Shown here: positions 1,277-8,910 of the stretch, one piece after another | Numbering within the stretch: the stretch's first letter is position 1 | Layout: each line of letters opens with the position of its first letter | Assembly: GCF_002025255.2 (NCBI RefSeq) | Contig: NZ_CP054587.1 | Span: forward strand, 310,001 to 374,000 | Direction: 5' to 3' | Origin: Halolamina sp. CBA1230 | GTDB lineage: Archaea; Halobacteriota; Halobacteria; Halobacteriales; Haloferacaceae | Length of the DNA stretch: 64,000 nucleotides | Notes under the pieces: model-generated | What the model saw: only the letters and a program-made list of their open reading frames with translations | Told to the model about the DNA's origin: nothing | Databases searched by the model: none | Position numbers and translations under genes: made by a program

Positions 1277-2356
1277 TCAGGCCGCGACGTCGCCGGCCAT
1301 CTCGACCGCCTCGTCGACGCCGACCTCTTCGTCCAGTTCGGCGAGCCGGGAGAGCAGTGCCTCGACACGGGCCTCGGTCGGCTCCCGTCCGGCGCGTTCG
1401 AGCAGCGTCCGGGCCGCACCCGCGCCCGTACTCGCGCCGAACAGGAGCCGTCGTTCCCCACCGAACCGCGCCGGGTCGAACGGCTCAAACGTCGACGGCT
1501 CGTCGAGCATCGCCGCGGTGTGGAGCCCCGACTCGTGGGAGAACACCTCGTCGCCGAGCAGCGGTTTCGTCGGTGAGACGTCCTCGTCCAGCGTCTCCAG
1601 CACGCGTCGGGCGACGGGGAGCAACGACGGCTCGTCGACCGCGAGGTCGATCGGCTCCACGCCGACGGCGGCCGCGGCGACGAACTCCTCGGTCGCCGTG
1701 TTCCCGGCACGCTCGCCGATCCCGCCGACGGAGACGTCGACTTTTCCCGCACCCACGCGGCCCGCCGCCAGCGCGTTCGCCGTGCCGACGCCGAGATCCT
1801 CGTGGAAATGAACCCCGACGGATCCGAGATCGGTGTCGAGGTCGGCGAGGAACTGCTGGACGCCCGCCGGCGTCCGCGAGCCGACCGTGTCCGCGACGGT
1901 GTACCAGTCGGCGTCGACGGCCGCGAACAGGTCGTCGAGGTGGCGGGGATCGGTGCGGAACCCGTCCATCGCGGTCAGGTGGACGTCGGCGTCCCCCGCC
2001 CGCGCGAGCGCCGCAGCCTCCCGGACGGATTCGACCATCGACTCCCGGGAGGAGCCAAGCACGGCATCGAGCTGTCGGTCGCTGGTCGGCGCGAACAGGT
2101 CGACCACGTCGACGCCGGCGTCGAGGGCGGCCTCGACGTCGCCCGGAACCGCGCGGGCGAGCCCCGTCACGTCGGCCGCCACGTCGAGTCGCTCACAGAC
2201 CTTTCGGGTCCGCTCGCCGGCGACGGGGAACCCGATCTGGAGGAAGTCGGCGCCGAGTTCGTCGAGTTCGCGGGCCGCCGCCACCTTCTGGTCGACCGTA
2301 TACTCGACGCCGGGGCGCTGCTCCCCCTCCCGAAGGGTCAGATCGAGCAGTTTCAC
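1277..2356 (-). CDS. LeuA / homocitrate / citramalate synthase-family enzyme, short form
   Basis: 359 residues of the DRE-TIM metallolyase family, whose members condense acetyl-CoA with a 2-oxoacid. Visible are the opening LLDLTLREGEQ, the metal-binding HxH in VHFHEDLG, and the LeuA-type VGGIGERAGNTA followed by FSHESGLHT. The ~130-residue C-terminal LeuA regulatory domain is absent, so the size fits homocitrate or citramalate synthase-like enzymes better than true isopropylmalate synthase. The start is GTG at 2356, overlapping the CoA transferase stop as GTGA; the longer upstream frame is Arg-rich shadow. It is the last gene of a six-gene operon with an ABC importer. The GERAGN motif argues against HMG-CoA lyase. 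Substrate unknown. Confidence 0.85.
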   Translation of the reverse strand: MKLLDLTLREGEQRPGVEYTVDQKVAAARELDELGADFLQIGFPVAGERTRKVCERLDVAADVTGLARAVPGDVEAALDAGVDVVDLFAPTSDRQLDAVLGSSRESMVESVREAAALARAGDADVHLTAMDGFRTDPRHLDDLFAAVDADWYTVADTVGSRTPAGVQQFLADLDTDLGSVGVHFHEDLGVGTANALAAGRVGAGKVDVSVGGIGERAGNTATEEFVAAAAVGVEPIDLAVDEPSLLPVARRVLETLDEDVSPTKPLLGDEVFSHESGLHTAAMLDEPSTFEPFDPARFGGERRLLFGASTGAGAARTLLERAGREPTEARVEALLSRLAELDEEVGVDEAVEMAGDVAA

Positions 2357-3630
2357 ACTGCACCCTCCTCCCGGAGCCGCTCGCGCTCCTGCTCGTCGTA
2401 GCCCAGCGCCTCGAGCACGGCGTCGGTGTCCTCGCCGAGCTCGGGCGGGTCGGTGTTCTCGACCCGTTCGAAGCCAGTCGAGCGCGCGGGGTAGCGGGGC
2501 ACGTCGATATCGCCGCCGTCGCCCTCGGTCGCGCGGACCGTCCCGAGCGCGTCGGTCTCCCGGAGGTGGCGGTCGTCGACCACGTCCTGTGTGTCGTTGA
2601 TCGGCGCGACCGGAACCCCGGCCTTCCGCAGCCGCTCGATCAGCTCCTCGGCGTCGAACTTCCCGCAAGCCGCGCCGACGCGCTCGTTCAGTGCGTCGCG
2701 GTTGGCCCGCCGGTCGTCGAGCGTGGCGAAACGCTCCTCCTCGTGGAGGTCGGTGTCGAGCGCTTCACACAGCGCCTCCCACTGCCCCTGCGAGGAGGGG
2801 CCGACGAACACCCACTCGTCGTCGGCGGACTGGTAGGCGTCGTAGGGGGCCCAGTTTGGGTGGCCGGCGCCGATCGGTTCGGGCACCTCGTCGTACGCCT
2901 GCGTGTACGCCAGCCAGTACCCCATCAGCGAGACGGTGCTCTCGTACAGCGGGACGGTGACGTGCTGCCCCTCGCCGCTCGCGTCGCGCTGGCGCACGCC
3001 GCCGAGCACCGAGATGGCGCCGTACAGCGAGGCGGCCATGTCCGCGAGGCTGGTGCCACACCGGACGGGCGGCTGGTCCGGATGCCCCGTGACGCTCATC
3101 ACGCCCGAGAGCGCCTCCGCCACGGGGTCGAGCGCGGGGTACTCCTGGTAGGGCCCCTCGTTGAACCCCTTGATCGAGCAGTAGACGAGCTCGTCGTTCA
3201 CCTGCTTCATGTCGTCGTAACCGACGCCGAGCCGGTCCGCGGTGCCGGCCGCGAAGTTCTCGATCAACACGTCAGCCTCCGCGACCAGATCCTCGAACAC
3301 CGCGCTCCCCTCGTCGGATTTCAGATCGAGGGTGACGCCCAGCTTGTTGCGGTTGACGTAGTTGAACGAGGCGTTCCCGGTGGGCGAGGAGTCACGGACA
3401 GCGTCGCCGCCGTTCGGATGCTCGACCTTGATCACCTCGGCGCCGAGGTCGGCCAGCAGCATCGAGCAGAACGGGCCGGCGATGATGTGGCCGAGTTCGA
3501 GCACAGTCACGTCCGAGAGCGGTCGGCCCTCGGTGCCGGGGAGTAGCCCCGGCACGACCCGGCCCCCGTCGGCGCGAGGTCGGTCTGGCTCGGACTGTGC
3601 GCCGTGCGTTGGATCATCGTGGCAGGTCAT
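2353..3630 (-). CDS. class III (CaiB/BaiF family) CoA transferase
   Basis: 425 residues. Family III enzymes move CoA between carboxylic acids through an aspartyl-CoA intermediate. The N-terminus reads VLELGHIIAGPFCSMLLADLG and VIKVEHPNGGD as in Frc/CaiB enzymes, and the catalytic Asp is most likely the one in ALDPVAEALSG (about residue 170). The first ~35 residues are low-complexity, so a shorter start is possible, but ATG 3630 forms an ATGA overlap with the ABC ATPase stop, which favours it. Its own stop overlaps the downstream GTG. Both overlaps imply translational coupling and a shared pathway. Haloarchaeal mesaconate CoA transferase is in this family, but no methylaspartate-cycle genes are adjacent. 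Confidence 0.88.
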   Translation of the reverse strand: MTCHDDPTHGAQSEPDRPRADGGRVVPGLLPGTEGRPLSDVTVLELGHIIAGPFCSMLLADLGAEVIKVEHPNGGDAVRDSSPTGNASFNYVNRNKLGVTLDLKSDEGSAVFEDLVAEADVLIENFAAGTADRLGVGYDDMKQVNDELVYCSIKGFNEGPYQEYPALDPVAEALSGVMSVTGHPDQPPVRCGTSLADMAASLYGAISVLGGVRQRDASGEGQHVTVPLYESTVSLMGYWLAYTQAYDEVPEPIGAGHPNWAPYDAYQSADDEWVFVGPSSQGQWEALCEALDTDLHEEERFATLDDRRANRDALNERVGAACGKFDAEELIERLRKAGVPVAPINDTQDVVDDRHLRETDALGTVRATEGDGGDIDVPRYPARSTGFERVENTDPPELGEDTDAVLEALGYDEQERERLREEGAV

Positions 3631-4754
3631 TGCGGGGGAGTAGTGGAGGTGACGAGTTCGTCGCCGTGGCAGATGGTCTCGCCGTCGCTGTCGAACACGA
3701 ACGCCTCGGCGGCGTCGAAGCCGACCGAGAGCTCGTCGCCGGGTTTGACGTCGCCGACGTCCTCGTCGACGATGTTGACGTGGGTGCCGGCCACGCTCGT
3801 CCCGTGGATCACGAACTCGGTGCCGAGCTGTTCGATCACGTCGGTGACAACCCGGATACGGTGGTCGCCGTGATCCGGCGAGAGGTACTGTGGACGGATC
3901 CCGACCGTGACCGAGTCGCCGACGCGGTCGTCGAACAGCTCCGGCGGCGCCGGGATCTCGAACTGCTCGCCCACCAGCGCCGGGCCGTCGTCGCCCGCCT
4001 CGACGGTCGCGGGGAGCGTGTTGGTCGAGGGTGTGCCGATGAACTCCGCGACGTACTGGGAGACCGGGCGGTCGAACAGATCCCCCGGCGGCGCGAACTG
4101 TGCGAGGCGACCCTCCTCGAGCAGGAGCACGTGGTCGCTCATCGTCATCGCCTCGGTCTGGTCGTGCGTGACGTACACCATCGTCGCGTCCATCTCCTTG
4201 TGGAGGCGCTGGACCTCCACCCGGAGTTCGGCTTTGAGTTTGGCGTCGAGGTCGGACATCGGCTCGTCGAGCAGGAGCACGTCGGGGTCCTGGACGAACG
4301 CGCTGCCCAGCGCGACGCGCTGCTGCTGGCCGCCGGAGAGCTCCGAGGGCATCTTCTCCAGCTGCTCGGTGATCTGGAGCGTCTCGGCAGCCTCGTCGAC
4401 GGCGGCGTCGCGCTCCGCCTTCGAGACGCCGGCGACTTTCAGCCCGTACGCGATGTTCTCCCGCACGCTCATGTGTGGGTAGAGCGCGATCGACTGGAAC
4501 ACCATCGCGGCGTTGCGGTCCTGCGGGCGCACCTCGGTCACGTCGCGGTCGCCGAAGTGGATGGTTCCCGAGGTCGGGCTCTCCAGGCCGGCGATCATCC
4601 GCAGCGTGGTGGTTTTCCCGCAGCCGGAGGGGCCGACGATGGTCGTGAACGACCCCTCCGGGATCTCGAGGGAGAGGTCGTCGACGGCAACGTGGGTCGT
4701 TCCGGCGGTGTGGTACTCCTTACAGACGTCGTCGAGTCGTATCGGTCGTGCCAT
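3627..4754 (-). CDS. ABC importer ATPase, MalK/UgpC type
   Basis: 375 residues; the ATP-hydrolysing subunit of a CUT1-type (sugar, polyol or glycerol-phosphate) importer. Walker A GPSGCGKTT is at residues 41-49, with Q-loop VFQSIALYPHM, signature LSGGQQQR, Walker B LLLDEP and H-loop THDQTEA, followed by a C-terminal TOBE/MalK-like domain from about residue 240. The usual Arg after the signature (ALGRA) is Ser here (ALGSA). ATG 4754 follows the permease stop by two bases; the longer upstream frame is shadow. Its stop overlaps the CoA transferase start, so it sits mid-operon. Confidence 0.93.
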   Translation of the reverse strand: MARPIRLDDVCKEYHTAGTTHVAVDDLSLEIPEGSFTTIVGPSGCGKTTTLRMIAGLESPTSGTIHFGDRDVTEVRPQDRNAAMVFQSIALYPHMSVRENIAYGLKVAGVSKAERDAAVDEAAETLQITEQLEKMPSELSGGQQQRVALGSAFVQDPDVLLLDEPMSDLDAKLKAELRVEVQRLHKEMDATMVYVTHDQTEAMTMSDHVLLLEEGRLAQFAPPGDLFDRPVSQYVAEFIGTPSTNTLPATVEAGDDGPALVGEQFEIPAPPELFDDRVGDSVTVGIRPQYLSPDHGDHRIRVVTDVIEQLGTEFVIHGTSVAGTHVNIVDEDVGDVKPGDELSVGFDAAEAFVFDSDGETICHGDELVTSTTPPQ

Positions 4755-4756
4755 AG

Positions 4757-5632
4757 TTATTCGAGGCCTCCGACGTTGAAGCCCTGCAGCAGGTAGTTCT
4801 GGAGGAACAGTGCGATCGCAAACGGCGGCAGCGACATCAGCACCGCGGCCGCCATCGTCTCCGACCAGCCGATGGTCACTCGGTCGAGGAACAGGCTGGC
4901 GCCGACGGTGATGGGGTACATCTCCTGTTGGCTCATCACCACCCGCGCCATCGTGAAGTCGTTCCACGCGACCGAGAACGCGAAGATCGCGGTCGCGATC
5001 GTGCCGGGCCGCGCGACCGGGAGGACCACCTCCCAGAGCGTGCGGGTCCGACTGGCGCCGCGGATCCACGCCGACTCCTCTAGCGCGATCGGCACCGTCT
5101 GGAAGTACTGCCACATCAACCAGATGCCGAACGGCGCGGAGATACCCGTCAGCGCCATCGTCAGCGCGAAGTAGCTGTCGAGCAGCCCCAGCGTGTAGAA
5201 GATCACGTACAGCGGGATCGCGAGCACGATCGGGCTGAACATGTACGCGAACAGCACCGCCCGCGCCGCCACCGTCTTCCCGCGGAAGTCGAACCGGGTC
5301 AGGCCGTAGCCCGCCGCGACCGACAGCGCCGTCGCCAGCAGCGTCGACGACGCCGTGACGACGAAGCTGTTGAACAGGTACCGGGGCGTGCCGGTCTCCG
5401 TGAACAGCAGCACGAAGTTGTCGATCGTGACCGAGTTCAGGAGGAGGTTCACGTCCCCGCCACGGAACGTGGTCGCCGACGGCTGGAACGCGATGGCGAT
5501 CATCACGTACACCGGGATGCTGACGAAGATCGAGACCAGCAGCGCCGTGAGGATCACCGCAACCCGGCGCACCCGCTCCTGGGTGTGCTGGCTGACGTAC
5601 GTCCCCGCGGCGCCCTCGCCGATACCGAACAT
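4757..5632 (-). CDS. ABC importer permease, MalG type
   Basis: 291 residues with about six membrane helices and the cytoplasmic coupling (EAA) loop EESAWIRGASRTRTLWEVVLP that docks on the ATPase. The C-terminus runs to LQNYLLQGFNVGGLE, typical of CUT1 MalG-like subunits. The ATG at 5632 shares a base with the stop of the partner permease (TGATG). It forms the transmembrane channel with the next gene. Substrate cannot be read from the sequence. Confidence 0.92.
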   Translation of the reverse strand: MFGIGEGAAGTYVSQHTQERVRRVAVILTALLVSIFVSIPVYVMIAIAFQPSATTFRGGDVNLLLNSVTIDNFVLLFTETGTPRYLFNSFVVTASSTLLATALSVAAGYGLTRFDFRGKTVAARAVLFAYMFSPIVLAIPLYVIFYTLGLLDSYFALTMALTGISAPFGIWLMWQYFQTVPIALEESAWIRGASRTRTLWEVVLPVARPGTIATAIFAFSVAWNDFTMARVVMSQQEMYPITVGASLFLDRVTIGWSETMAAAVLMSLPPFAIALFLQNYLLQGFNVGGLE

Positions 5633-6543
5633 CAGGCGGTCACCTCCTTCTCGGGCTTGAACGCCCAGAAGTAGACGACGGCCGTCGACGCCAGCAGCAG
5701 GAACATGATCCCCGCAAGCGCCGTCGCCGCCGCGAAGTCAGTCTCGAAGAAGGCCAGCTCGTACACCCGGATCGGGAGGGTAGTCGTGGCGTTCAGCGGT
5801 CCACCGCTTGTCGCGAGGTAGATGATGTCGAACTTGTTGAACATCCAGATCCCCCTGACGAGGATGATGATCAGGACCGCCCCACGGAGCTGCGGGGCGG
5901 TGATGTCACGGAACGCCTGCCACGTCGACGCCCCCTCGACGCGAGCGCGCTCGTAGAGGTTCGGGTCGATCGCCTGCAGCCGGGCCAACAGGATGAAGAA
6001 GGCGAACGAGCCGTACTTCCAGACGCTGGCGACGACGACCGCGGGCATCGCCCACTGCAGCGACGAGAAGAACGACAGCGGCTCCTGGATCAGCCCGTAG
6101 TCGAGCAGGAACTGGTTCACCGCGCCGACGTTGGGGTCGAGCAGGAACGTCCACATGAAGATGACCACCAGCGTCGGCAGCAGGTACGGGAAGATCATCA
6201 TCGTCCGCAGCGCGTTCCCACCCTTGATCTCGCGGTTGACCACCAGTGCGAGCCCCAGCCCCAGCGCGAGGCTGAGAAGCGTCGAGGAGAGCGCGTAGAG
6301 GACGCTGTTGAGCAGTGCTTTGCCGAATATCTCCGAGGAGAGAACCTGTGCGTAGTTCGCGAGCCCCGCGAACTCCGCAGCCCCGGTCGGGTCCGAGAAC
6401 AGGCTCATCCCCAGCGCGTAGCCGATGGGAACACCCCAGACGAGGACGAAAAACAGCGTGAACGGGACGAACGTCGCGAGCAACAGCAGCCGCTTCTCGT
6501 CGAACTCGCCGAGGCGCCCCTGCAGCGCACTAACTGCGGACAT
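5632..6543 (-). CDS. ABC importer permease, MalF type
   Basis: 303 residues with about six helices; the first begins near FVPFTLFFVLVWGVPIGYA. The coupling loop is YERARVEGASTWQAFRDITA. The short N-terminal region lacks the extra helices of enteric MalF, as in most CUT1 systems outside enterics. Nine bases separate it from the binding-protein gene upstream, and it overlaps the second permease by one base. Together they form the heterodimeric membrane pore. Confidence 0.92.
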   Translation of the reverse strand: MSAVSALQGRLGEFDEKRLLLLATFVPFTLFFVLVWGVPIGYALGMSLFSDPTGAAEFAGLANYAQVLSSEIFGKALLNSVLYALSSTLLSLALGLGLALVVNREIKGGNALRTMMIFPYLLPTLVVIFMWTFLLDPNVGAVNQFLLDYGLIQEPLSFFSSLQWAMPAVVVASVWKYGSFAFFILLARLQAIDPNLYERARVEGASTWQAFRDITAPQLRGAVLIIILVRGIWMFNKFDIIYLATSGGPLNATTTLPIRVYELAFFETDFAAATALAGIMFLLLASTAVVYFWAFKPEKEVTA

Positions 6544-6552
6544 CGAGGAGCG

Positions 6553-7866
6553 TTACTCCTCCTGAAGCCCGCGGAGCTCTTCTGCCACCCAGTCGACGGT
6601 CTCCTCGGGTGAACGGTTCCCCACGATGAGCTGTTCGGCCGACTGGCCGAACAGCTGTTCGCTGTAGGCGTTGGCGGCGGTGAGGTTGGGCGCACCCTCG
6701 TCGCCGGTCGCGAGCACCGTCGTGAACGCGTCCCAGTTGTTCCGGACCAGATCCACCGCCTCCTGGTGCTCCGACAACACCTCGTTCTCCTGCATCGCGT
6801 CGCTGTTCATCAGCTCTTCCGTCGGCGGCCACTGGAACAGCGGCGCCGACAGCACGAAGTCGAGGAACCGCTCGGACTCGCTGAAGAAGCGCGTGAACTC
6901 CTGAGCGCCCTCGGTGGCCTCGCCGTCGCTCCGGACGACGTGGCCCTCCATGTACGCCCACCACTTGTCCTGCTGGCCGCCCTCCGGCATCGGGTAGGCC
7001 GTCGGTGTGAGGTTCTCGACCAGATCGGGTCGGTTCTGACGGATCGTCAGGATCGGCAGGCCGCCGACGGACATCAGCGCCGCGGCGTTGCCCTGCTGGA
7101 GCGCCTGCGTGCCGTCGCCCCACTCCCAGCCGGAGCCGTTCGGCGCGTACTCGTTGATGTTCTGGAGCCACTGGTACGTCTCGACGGCCCGTTCGCGGTT
7201 CCCTCCCTGATCGATCGTGACCTCGATGTCGTCGGAGGGGCCGCTGTAGATGTCCACGTTGTTCTGCCAGAGGTACTGGGTCGCGGACGTGTCCGCGTTG
7301 TTGGTCTGGCCCGTCGGGACGACGAAGCCGTTGATGTCCTCCTCCTCGCTGACCCGCTGGGCCTCGCTGAGCCACGTGTCGAACGTCGTCGGGTTCTCCT
7401 CGTAGAGGTCGTTACGGTACCACCCCATCAGCGGTTCGACCATCGTCGGCGCGAAGTACGATTCGCCGCCGACGTTGACCGGATCCGGGAGACCGACGTC
7501 CTGGACGGCCTCGGTAACCGTCGCGAGGTTGCCGTTCTGCTGGTACCGGTACGCGTCGGCGGACGTGTCGAACACCAGATCCGGCGGGTTCCCCGCCGCG
7601 AGCATCTGCTGGAGCTCCTCGTCCGTCGACGTCCCGCGCGAGGTGTACGTTACCTCGACGGTGTAGTCGAACTCGTTCTCGAACTCGGTGATGATGTCGT
7701 CGACGACATCACTGGAGTCCCCTCGGTCCGAGAGATACCGGATCGTGTTCTCTCCGCCGCCGCCACCGCCCAGGCAGCCCGCGATTCCCAGCGTCGCTGT
7801 CGCCCCAGCGGCGCCGGCGAACCGTCGGCGTGTGAACTGTTTGCGTGCCATGTCTTCTATAACCAT
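6553..7866 (-). CDS. ABC importer substrate-binding lipoprotein (Tat-exported)
   Basis: 437 residues from ATG 7866, or 432 from the ATG at 7851 (MARKQF). It has a twin-arginine signal (RRRFAGAAGATATLGIAGC) whose lipobox Cys precedes a Gly-rich linker, as usual for haloarchaeal binding proteins. The rest is a cluster B / UgpB-like extracellular solute-binding domain (FETW-type segments, PTGQTNN, GVGG-like SVGGLPI). It captures the ligand outside the membrane for the two permeases. A TATA-like TTTAAG at about 7908-7913 overlaps the stop of the regulator gene and would start a transcript ~17 bases before ATG 7866, so the operon seems to have its own promoter. Confidence 0.93.
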   Translation of the reverse strand: MVIEDMARKQFTRRRFAGAAGATATLGIAGCLGGGGGGENTIRYLSDRGDSSDVVDDIITEFENEFDYTVEVTYTSRGTSTDEELQQMLAAGNPPDLVFDTSADAYRYQQNGNLATVTEAVQDVGLPDPVNVGGESYFAPTMVEPLMGWYRNDLYEENPTTFDTWLSEAQRVSEEEDINGFVVPTGQTNNADTSATQYLWQNNVDIYSGPSDDIEVTIDQGGNRERAVETYQWLQNINEYAPNGSGWEWGDGTQALQQGNAAALMSVGGLPILTIRQNRPDLVENLTPTAYPMPEGGQQDKWWAYMEGHVVRSDGEATEGAQEFTRFFSESERFLDFVLSAPLFQWPPTEELMNSDAMQENEVLSEHQEAVDLVRNNWDAFTTVLATGDEGAPNLTAANAYSEQLFGQSAEQLIVGNRSPEETVDWVAEELRGLQEE

Positions 7867-7904
7867 AGTTCGGGATGGTTGGCTTTCCCGCCTACACTCG
7901 TTGG

Positions 7905-7914
7905 CTCTTTAAGT
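7905..7914 (-). promoter_or_regulatory. putative TATA element of the ABC/CoA-transferase operon
   Basis: On the minus strand ACTTAAAGAG lies 40-45 bases before ATG 7866 and overlaps the TAA of the upstream regulator. Distance and composition fit an archaeal TATA box with a short leader. Not experimentally shown. Confidence 0.5.
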
Positions 7915-8598
7915 GCTAGTCGGGTCGGAAACCTGCTCGTCCTCCAGCATGAACGCCGCCTCGTCGGGGGTGGGTTCGTCACTCCGGTCGCCACGGCTGA
8001 GCGCGTCGGAGAGCAGCGCCCGTTCCGCCTTCCGGAGGTGTTCGAGGAACGTGGAGTGAGCGATGTCGAGCTCGTCGGCCAGCGTCTCCGCGTCGACCTC
8101 GCGGGGCCACTCGTAGTACCCCTGTCGGAGCGCGGTCGAGATCACCTCCGATTGGCGTTCGGAGAGCATGCTGTCGGGTTCGAGGTACGGGGTGAGTCGG
8201 CCGAGCCGGACCGTGCTGATGGCTCCGAGCTCCTCGATCATCTTCCGAAGGTCCGCCCGCCGGTACACCACCACGTCGAACACGCGCTGATCGCCGCTGA
8301 CCTGATCCCGGCCTTCGAGCATCCCGTGGTTCTCGCGGATGATCGGGAGCGCGCCACAGGCGTGCTTGGTCACCGCCAGCCGGCTGTCCTCGAGCCGGTC
8401 GAGCTCGATCACCTCCTCCGACGCTCGGAGCGCCGACGCGATCTCGTCGATCCGGTCCCCGGCGTCGAGCACGAACCGCACCCTGTCGCCGCCGATCACC
8501 TCCTCGCTGCTGACGGCGAAGGAGACGTTCCACTCGTCGGTCACGCGGCTGAGGATACAGTTCGCGTCGAGCTTGATGTAGATCTTGGCACGGTACAT
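7909..8598 (-). CDS. Bat-type HTH transcriptional regulator (HTH_10 family)
   Basis: 229 residues. The C-terminal ~55 residues (LSERQSEVISTALRQGYYEWPREV, then LADELDIAHSTFLEHLRKAE) form the helix-turn-helix typical of bacterio-opsin-activator-like haloarchaeal regulators. The N-terminal ~150 residues are a conserved ligand or sensor region without a PAS or GAF core that I can recognise. ATG 8598 (MYRAKIYIK) was chosen over the longer frame because the homologous region starts there. It is encoded directly upstream of the importer operon on the same strand, 42 bases before its first ATG, so it is the likely local regulator. That target is inferred. Confidence 0.85.
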   Translation of the reverse strand: MYRAKIYIKLDANCILSRVTDEWNVSFAVSSEEVIGGDRVRFVLDAGDRIDEIASALRASEEVIELDRLEDSRLAVTKHACGALPIIRENHGMLEGRDQVSGDQRVFDVVVYRRADLRKMIEELGAISTVRLGRLTPYLEPDSMLSERQSEVISTALRQGYYEWPREVDAETLADELDIAHSTFLEHLRKAERALLSDALSRGDRSDEPTPDEAAFMLEDEQVSDPTST

Positions 8599-8715: not shown

Positions 8716-8910
8716 ATGGCGACAGGCAAGGTTGCGTTCTTCAACGACACTGGCGGGTACGGCTTCATCGAGACCGAGGACGCGGACGACGACGTGTTCT
8801 TCCACATGGAGGACGTCGGCGGCCCCGACCTCGAGGAAGGGCAGGAGGTGGAGTTCGACATCGAACAGGCAGACAAGGGTCCGCGCGCCACGAACCTGAA
8901 GCGGCTGTAG
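8716..8910 (+). CDS. cspA: cold shock domain protein (CspA family)
   Basis: 64 residues forming a single OB-fold cold shock domain that binds single-stranded RNA or DNA. RNP1-like GYGFIE and RNP2-like VFFHM are both present, and the length is that of a standalone Csp. ATG 8716 (MATGKVAFFND) starts directly at the domain; the much longer upstream frame is antisense shadow of the regulator. It is expressed divergently from that regulator. The many Asp and Glu residues are ordinary for haloarchaea. Confidence 0.96.
   Translation: MATGKVAFFNDTGGYGFIETEDADDDVFFHMEDVGGPDLEEGQEVEFDIEQADKGPRATNLKRL

Follow-up and report, generated by a model that had tools for sequence, protein, structure and literature searches.

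The window analyzed here, a 64,000-nucleotide stretch of the 3.47 Mb genome of Halolamina sp. CBA1230 (G000, C1:310001-374000), carries on its minus strand six tightly joined genes (7866-1277) that encode an ATP-binding cassette (ABC) importer, a class III coenzyme A (CoA) transferase and a short LeuA-derived enzyme, denoted LeuL hereafter, which together form a candidate module for carboxylic acid degradation. The first gene encodes a solute-binding lipoprotein of the SBP_bac_1 family (6553..7866; PF01547, E=5.7e-17, and family alignment) with a Tat-type RR motif and a lipobox. It is followed by a UgpA/MalF-like permease 1 (5632..6543; PF00528, E=7.8e-20), a GlcU/MalG-like permease 2 (4757..5632; PF00528, E=1.3e-13), a MalK/UgpC-type ATPase with ABC_tran, OB_MalK and TOBE_2 domains identified with Pfam and NCBIfam (3627..4754), the CaiB/BaiF-type CoA transferase (2353..3630; PF02515, E=4e-116, 388 bits, full length) and LeuL (1277..2356; 359 aa), a DRE-TIM enzyme and putative acyl-CoA lyase that consists of an HMGL-like catalytic domain and a post-HMGL HCS_D2 domain and lacks the LeuA regulatory domain.

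The junctions, read directly from the sequence, are exactly those claimed in the initial annotation, and its family calls are likewise upheld by Pfam and NCBIfam. The binding-protein stop codon at 6553 lies 9 nt from the ATG of permease 1 at 6543; base 5632 is common to the two permease genes (TGATG); 2 nt separate the permease 2 stop codon at 4757 from the ATPase ATG at 4754; the ATPase and CaiB genes overlap by ATGA (3627-3630), which leaves no space for a terminator; and the last two genes, CaiB and LeuL, share GTGA (2353-2356), which places the LeuL start codon, GTG, at 2356. The same gene order is found again in Halorubrum, Haloferax, Haladaptatus, Halorussus and others and thus is not due to chance.

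Immediately upstream, also on the minus strand, lies a gene for a 229-aa candidate regulator of the module (7912..8598; PF04967, E=2e-19). The bacterio-opsin activator Bat has further sensor domains besides HTH_10. The upstream protein, initially labeled a Bat-type regulator, does belong to the HTH_10 family; however, it is not Bat itself, given that a Pfam domain search of the 229 aa found HTH_10 as the sole domain and none of the other Bat sensor domains. A small cold-shock-domain-like protein (8719-8910; KVAFFNDTGGYGFIETED) is encoded on the plus strand between the regulator gene and the gene that follows.

A conserved promoter/operator element overlaps the regulator stop codon (7890..7913, minus strand; 35.5 bits in the window), 23 nt before the ATG of the binding-protein gene. 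The element, CTTAAAGAGCCAACGAGTGTAGGC, consists of an archaeal-type TATA box (CTTAAAGAG) followed by an imperfect palindrome, CCAACGAGTGTAGG, with the general form CCWACANNTGTAGG. With this promoter of its own, the six-gene operon can be transcribed independently of the regulator.

Conservation of the CaiB-LeuL pair and its operator

Relatives of LeuL (E below 1e-85) were detected in some 56 of 292 Halobacteria genomes, about a fifth, and in 10 of 15 Haloferax species. The distribution is scattered, and the gene is often plasmid-borne; the NCBI annotation of the plasmid copies matches the gene content and order. Outside haloarchaea, a scan of genome contigs yielded only ordinary synthase types without CaiB. 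We compared the neighborhoods of 66 distinct LeuL loci with 4 haloarchaeal LeuA loci as the control. The expected conserved synteny across haloarchaea was found: a CaiB-type gene is present in 62 of the LeuL loci (within 150 nt of LeuL in 57) and in none of the 4 control loci, and the distances of LeuL and CaiB are correlated (Mantel r 0.72; 0/2000 permutations).

The pair is constant, whereas the front end varies among five types, most of which are importers: CUT1 (22 loci), HyuAB with an isochorismatase-family amidase (14), TctABC (7), NMT1-type ABC (5) and SSF (4). The 14 loci with an unrecognized front end are an upper bound because only homologs of the listed types were sought. LeuCD accompanies LeuL in L053, L071 and L083, and three of the five NMT1-type loci have LeuCD; the LeuD proteins involved are of the LeuD/DmdB type. 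The CUT1 importer is unlinked from the enzymes wherever another front end takes its place, as well as in two Halolamina genomes (L033 and L035) where it is not near LeuL, one of these also lacking CaiB, but the CaiB-LeuL pair generally stays together. In L066 (3058-8983) and 13 similar loci, the operon runs HyuA-HyuB-isochorismatase-CaiB-LeuL-HTH_10, with caprolactamase as the best NCBIfam match, below the cut-off; this may be a ring-opening front end.

The element found in front of the Halolamina operon precedes the binding-protein gene in 20 of 21 extracted CUT1-locus upstream regions, the remaining one being clipped by the end of the extracted sequence. A matrix trained on the CUT1 loci only (threshold >=16.5 bits) gave 23 matches in the 46 untrained LeuL loci, compared to 0.7 expected from Markov-1 resampled sequence, and 21 of these 23 immediately precede a gene of the module (binding protein, TctC, SSF, HyuA, CaiB, LeuL or regulator). 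Modules with different front ends therefore have one common cis element. An HTH_10 gene is located within 8.5 kb in 49 of the 66 loci, and the HTH_10 protein presumably binds the TATA-adjacent palindrome.

These replacements also bear on the imported compound. The CUT1-type composition of the importer in the window is complete, with the lipoprotein, two MalFG-type permeases and a MalK-type ATPase with OB/TOBE domains. The structure model of the binding protein is too poor for ligand inference (predicted local distance difference test (pLDDT) 47), and in a sequence search against the PDB, this protein has weak MBP-type matches only. The initial annotation took the CUT1 type to suggest a polyol, sugar acid or phosphoester ligand, but this type is no indication of a polyol or sugar: the same enzyme pair, with the same operator, is served by TctABC, SSF, NMT1-type ABC or HyuAB, which points to a carboxylate as the ligand.

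Two neighbors of the operon, namely, a HAD protein and a second class III CoA transferase encoded in this genome (10325-11602, plus strand), were rejected as parts of the system because they adjoin it only in Halolamina. The transferase gene is divergent from the operon; its product has the classical Asp and Gln, and its best NCBIfam match is of the succinate-glutarate type.

LeuL and its CoA transferase

LeuL shares with LeuA, NifV and CimA the fold, the two domains, the metal ligands, an Arg and the general-base His but differs from them in key respects, including its linkage to CaiB and a transporter. The best score that it attains among the LeuA, CimA and NifV models is 273.5 bits against a cut-off of 517, and it falls below every such cut-off. 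LeuL proteins form one clade, separate from both the ilv-linked LeuA, to which LeuL is 41% identical, and the bacterial synthases. The structure model (pLDDT 92.5) comprises the HMGL barrel and HCS_D2, with 6e1j and 6ktq (methylthioalkylmalate and homocitrate synthases) as the best PDB matches. When aligned to methylthioalkylmalate synthase (MAMS) 6E1J (PMC11532901), LeuL retains Arg9, Gln13, Thr157, His183, His185 and the general base His279, with Glu10 as a metal ligand, whereas MAMS Glu227 and Tyr399 correspond to Met130 and Phe290, respectively. Position 40 is occupied by Gln in 39 of 41 LeuL sequences but by Glu in the compared LeuA, NifV and HCS-type synthases, and most of the clade is set apart by Gln40, Glu10, His126 and Met283. 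NCBI often names LeuL copies 'citramalate synthase', and also 'LeuA family protein'. The curated annotation of Haloferax volcanii denies LeuA or CimA function to a third paralog, HVO_A0489, which is listed as 'general function only' (PMC8305020) and is probably the LeuL ortholog.

The CaiB protein of the window has CoA transferases as its best NCBIfam models and PDB chains, with all NCBIfam scores below the cut-off, and exceeds the cut-off for no tested subfamily (Mct, succinate-glutarate, Frc, CaiB). When aligned to YfdE and 4ed9, it retains the catalytic Asp168 (ALDPVAEALSG; Asp169 in Frc) and, in addition, has Glu172 at Asp+4. Glu occupies this position in all 56 aligned LeuL-linked CaiBs, compared to Gln in 20 of 21 unlinked haloarchaeal CaiBs; the sole exception among the latter, L210, led to the locus L215 discussed below. 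The best NCBIfam match of the CaiB in the window is the haloarchaeal class III enzyme Mct, the succinyl-CoA:mesaconate CoA-transferase of Haloarcula hispanica (PMC5592240). However, the score is 270 bits (cut-off 700), the GNxH loop reads GAGH, and no mesaconyl-CoA hydratase gene is adjacent.

Direction of the reaction and nature of the acid

We propose, with confidence only a little better than even, that the operon serves the dissimilation of an imported carboxylic acid: CaiB would make the CoA thioester and LeuL would cleave it to acetyl-CoA and a 2-oxoacid. Under this scheme, which draws on protein families, gene context and gene replacement, the exported binding protein and the CUT1-type importer would take up the carboxylate, and the class III transferase would shift CoA from succinyl-CoA or acetyl-CoA to the acid. 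LeuL, a duplicate from the LeuA lineage, would then reverse the condensation in a retro-Claisen reaction on the thioester, and the HTH_10 regulator would switch the operon via the TATA-adjacent palindrome. In LeuA-type synthases, CoA leaves in free form; reversal thus requires prior re-activation of the acid, which would explain the presence of a CoA transferase. The combination of uptake, CoA activation and a LeuA-like condensation 'or its reverse' that was suggested initially is accordingly supported by the sequences, the reverse being the better direction.

The strongest argument for cleavage comes from operons in which a true HMG-CoA (3-hydroxy-3-methylglutaryl-CoA) lyase occupies the seat of LeuL beside the same kind of CaiB. 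In L215, the gene order is LLM oxidoreductase, isochorismatase-family amidase, dihydropyrimidinase-like amidohydrolase, CaiB, HMG-CoA lyase (NCBIfam 285 bits, cut-off 246), LeuC, LeuD and ABC transporter genes, and the core of this operon is also present on Halorubrum, Natrinema and Haloferax plasmids. The bacterium Cupriavidus necator N-1 has the order LysR - CaiB - HMG-CoA lyase - LeuC - LeuD - TctC. In these operons, as in the LeuL modules, a class III CoA-transferase-like gene with Glu at Asp+4 adjoins a gene for a DRE-TIM enzyme, and LeuCD parallels that of some LeuL loci, as does the TctC binding protein in Cupriavidus; they differ in the lyase itself, in Gly or Ala in place of the catalytic Asp of CaiB, and in lacking a CUT1 importer. 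The initial annotation knew of no standard pathway combining the three components, but the association of a CoA transferase, a DRE-TIM lyase and a carboxylate transporter exists, for example, in C. necator N-1, and is therefore not unprecedented. We found no biochemical description of the CaiB - HMG-CoA lyase - LeuCD operons in the open-access literature. The operon of L215 (6190-16418) and those of L216-L218 look like a pathway that degrades a cyclic amide or imide.

Placing CoA on a dicarboxylate, followed by carbon-carbon cleavage to acetyl-CoA and a 2-oxoacid, is a logic shared with two known routes; their lyases, citramalyl-CoA lyase among them, are CitE-like, whereas LeuL is a DRE-TIM enzyme. 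One is the 3-hydroxypropionate bi-cycle, with succinyl-CoA:malate CoA transferase and the CitE-like malyl-CoA lyase (PMC3832036); the other is itaconate/(S)-citramalate degradation, with itaconate CoA transferase, a hydratase and (S)-citramalyl-CoA lyase (PMC12290011).

Several observations weigh against the proposed cleavage. LeuL scores only 32.9 bits with the NCBIfam model of HMG-CoA lyase (cut-off 246), and its HCS_D2 domain is of the synthase type. A basal group of four members of the LeuL clade retains Glu40 and Tyr290. In other 2-isopropylmalate synthases, a Glu and a Tyr support the catalytic His, and we rejected their replacement by Met130 and Phe290 as proof of lyase activity: the LeuA of the same genome, which is encoded in an ilvBNC-leuCD cluster, carries both, so that Met/Phe is a trait of the lineage. 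The same replacement is observed across ilv-linked haloarchaeal LeuA (L158, 8516-9757, in the Halolamina genome; L160-L175). Four of the 66 LeuL loci have no CaiB nearby, and no LeuCD genes lie beside the operon in the window. In the 30 aligned CaiBs of sister LeuL groups, the catalytic Asp is invariably replaced by Gly, and in three genomes (G035 and G228, each 99% complete, and G183, 93%), such a CaiB is the only class III gene.

The CaiBs that combine Gly or Ala with the Glu (PGFGTxAE) come from L053, L066, L050 and 27 other LeuL loci, as well as from L216-L220, and adjoin a DRE-TIM lyase gene, that is, either HMG-CoA lyase or the putative lyase LeuL, in archaea and Burkholderiales. Rescue of the Asp-less CaiBs by a BbsEF-like heterodimer is excluded for the three genomes with a single class III gene, where a catalytic partner subunit is unavailable. 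Because the largest sister group has a CaiB without the Asp, which in the three genomes is the sole class III gene, CoA transfer is not assured in these modules: either the Glu takes over, or the protein has a role other than classical CoA transfer. A broader evolutionary scenario, which we offer tentatively and regard as doubtful, is that LeuL is an acyl-CoA lyase born within the Claisen-condensing LeuA branch and paired with a CaiB group in which the catalytic carboxylate moved from Asp to Glu; this group would span archaea and Burkholderiales, with the Glu located about one helical turn further on, and the protein in the window has both residues.

Among the alternatives, the synthetic direction fares best, although it appears unlikely: CaiB would activate the imported acid, and LeuL would join the resulting acyl-CoA, or else acetyl-CoA, to a 2-oxoacid such as glyoxylate or pyruvate, giving an alkylmalate that would later be processed as in routes of the methylcitrate or malate synthase type. 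The fold and nearest relatives of LeuL are those of condensing synthases, HCS_D2 with its general-base His included, and LeuCD in some loci would suit chain elongation. However, a true HMG-CoA lyase replaces LeuL beside the same type of CaiB, condensation of acetyl-CoA would require no dedicated CoA transferase, and Glu40, constant in the compared synthases, is Gln in LeuL. It is still less probable that CaiB, instead of transferring CoA, catalyzes racemization or another CoA-ester reaction on the substrate or product of LeuL, with the acid activated elsewhere: the CaiB family includes racemases and isomerases, and the Asp-less sister proteins remain strongly conserved and paired even as the sole class III gene of three genomes, but the CaiB of the window retains Asp168 and matches CoA transferases best, if below the NCBIfam cut-offs. 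Least of all do we expect LeuL to be an auxiliary 2-isopropylmalate or citramalate synthase for amino acids, next to CaiB and the importer by chance or for another purpose, as its database names and its identity to ilv-linked LeuA might suggest, considering the scores far under every synthase cut-off, the distinct residues of a clade that is monophyletic and separate, the CaiB linkage, the LeuA already encoded in the genome, the patchy, often plasmid-borne distribution and the curated H. volcanii annotation of HVO_A0489, the probable LeuL ortholog.

For the favored dissimilatory role, the acid most likely belongs to the C2-substituted malate derivatives, such as (R)-citramalate or a 2-alkylmalate that an alkyl-maleate could yield. 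The window lacks both LeuCD and HyuAB/amidase, and our guess is that (R)-citramalate fits here. In the loci with LeuCD, hydration of an alkyl-maleate could give a 2-alkylmalate as the acid, and where HyuAB/amidase forms the front end, a cyclic amide or imide could be the source of the alkyl-maleate. The sister modules would supply the same pair via other transporters, LeuCD hydratases, or ring-opening and amide hydrolases.

Implications for haloarchaeal metabolism and class III CoA transferases

The suspicion that the module is undescribed proved justified within the open-access literature, where we found no description of it. Operons that combine a CoA transferase and a lyase for acid degradation are known in outline from the itaconate and malate/citramalate routes; judging from the sequences, what appears to be new here is a putative lyase of LeuA descent and a CaiB without the Asp, and the chemistry looks new for the enzyme family of LeuL. 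A catabolic role is thereby proposed for a LeuA-like gene, often named 'citramalate synthase', that is present in about a fifth of the sampled Halobacteria genomes, and the operator makes the whole regulon findable. If this role is confirmed, leucine-pathway enzymes (the LeuA lineage and LeuCD) would run in reverse for degradation, with the CoA transferase paying for the CoA that a synthase would otherwise release. The Asp-less CaiB group, in both archaea and bacteria, casts doubt on assuming the class III mechanism from family membership, and a relocation of the catalytic carboxylate from Asp to Glu, if true, would define a new mechanistic class of CoA transferases tied to carbon-carbon lyases.

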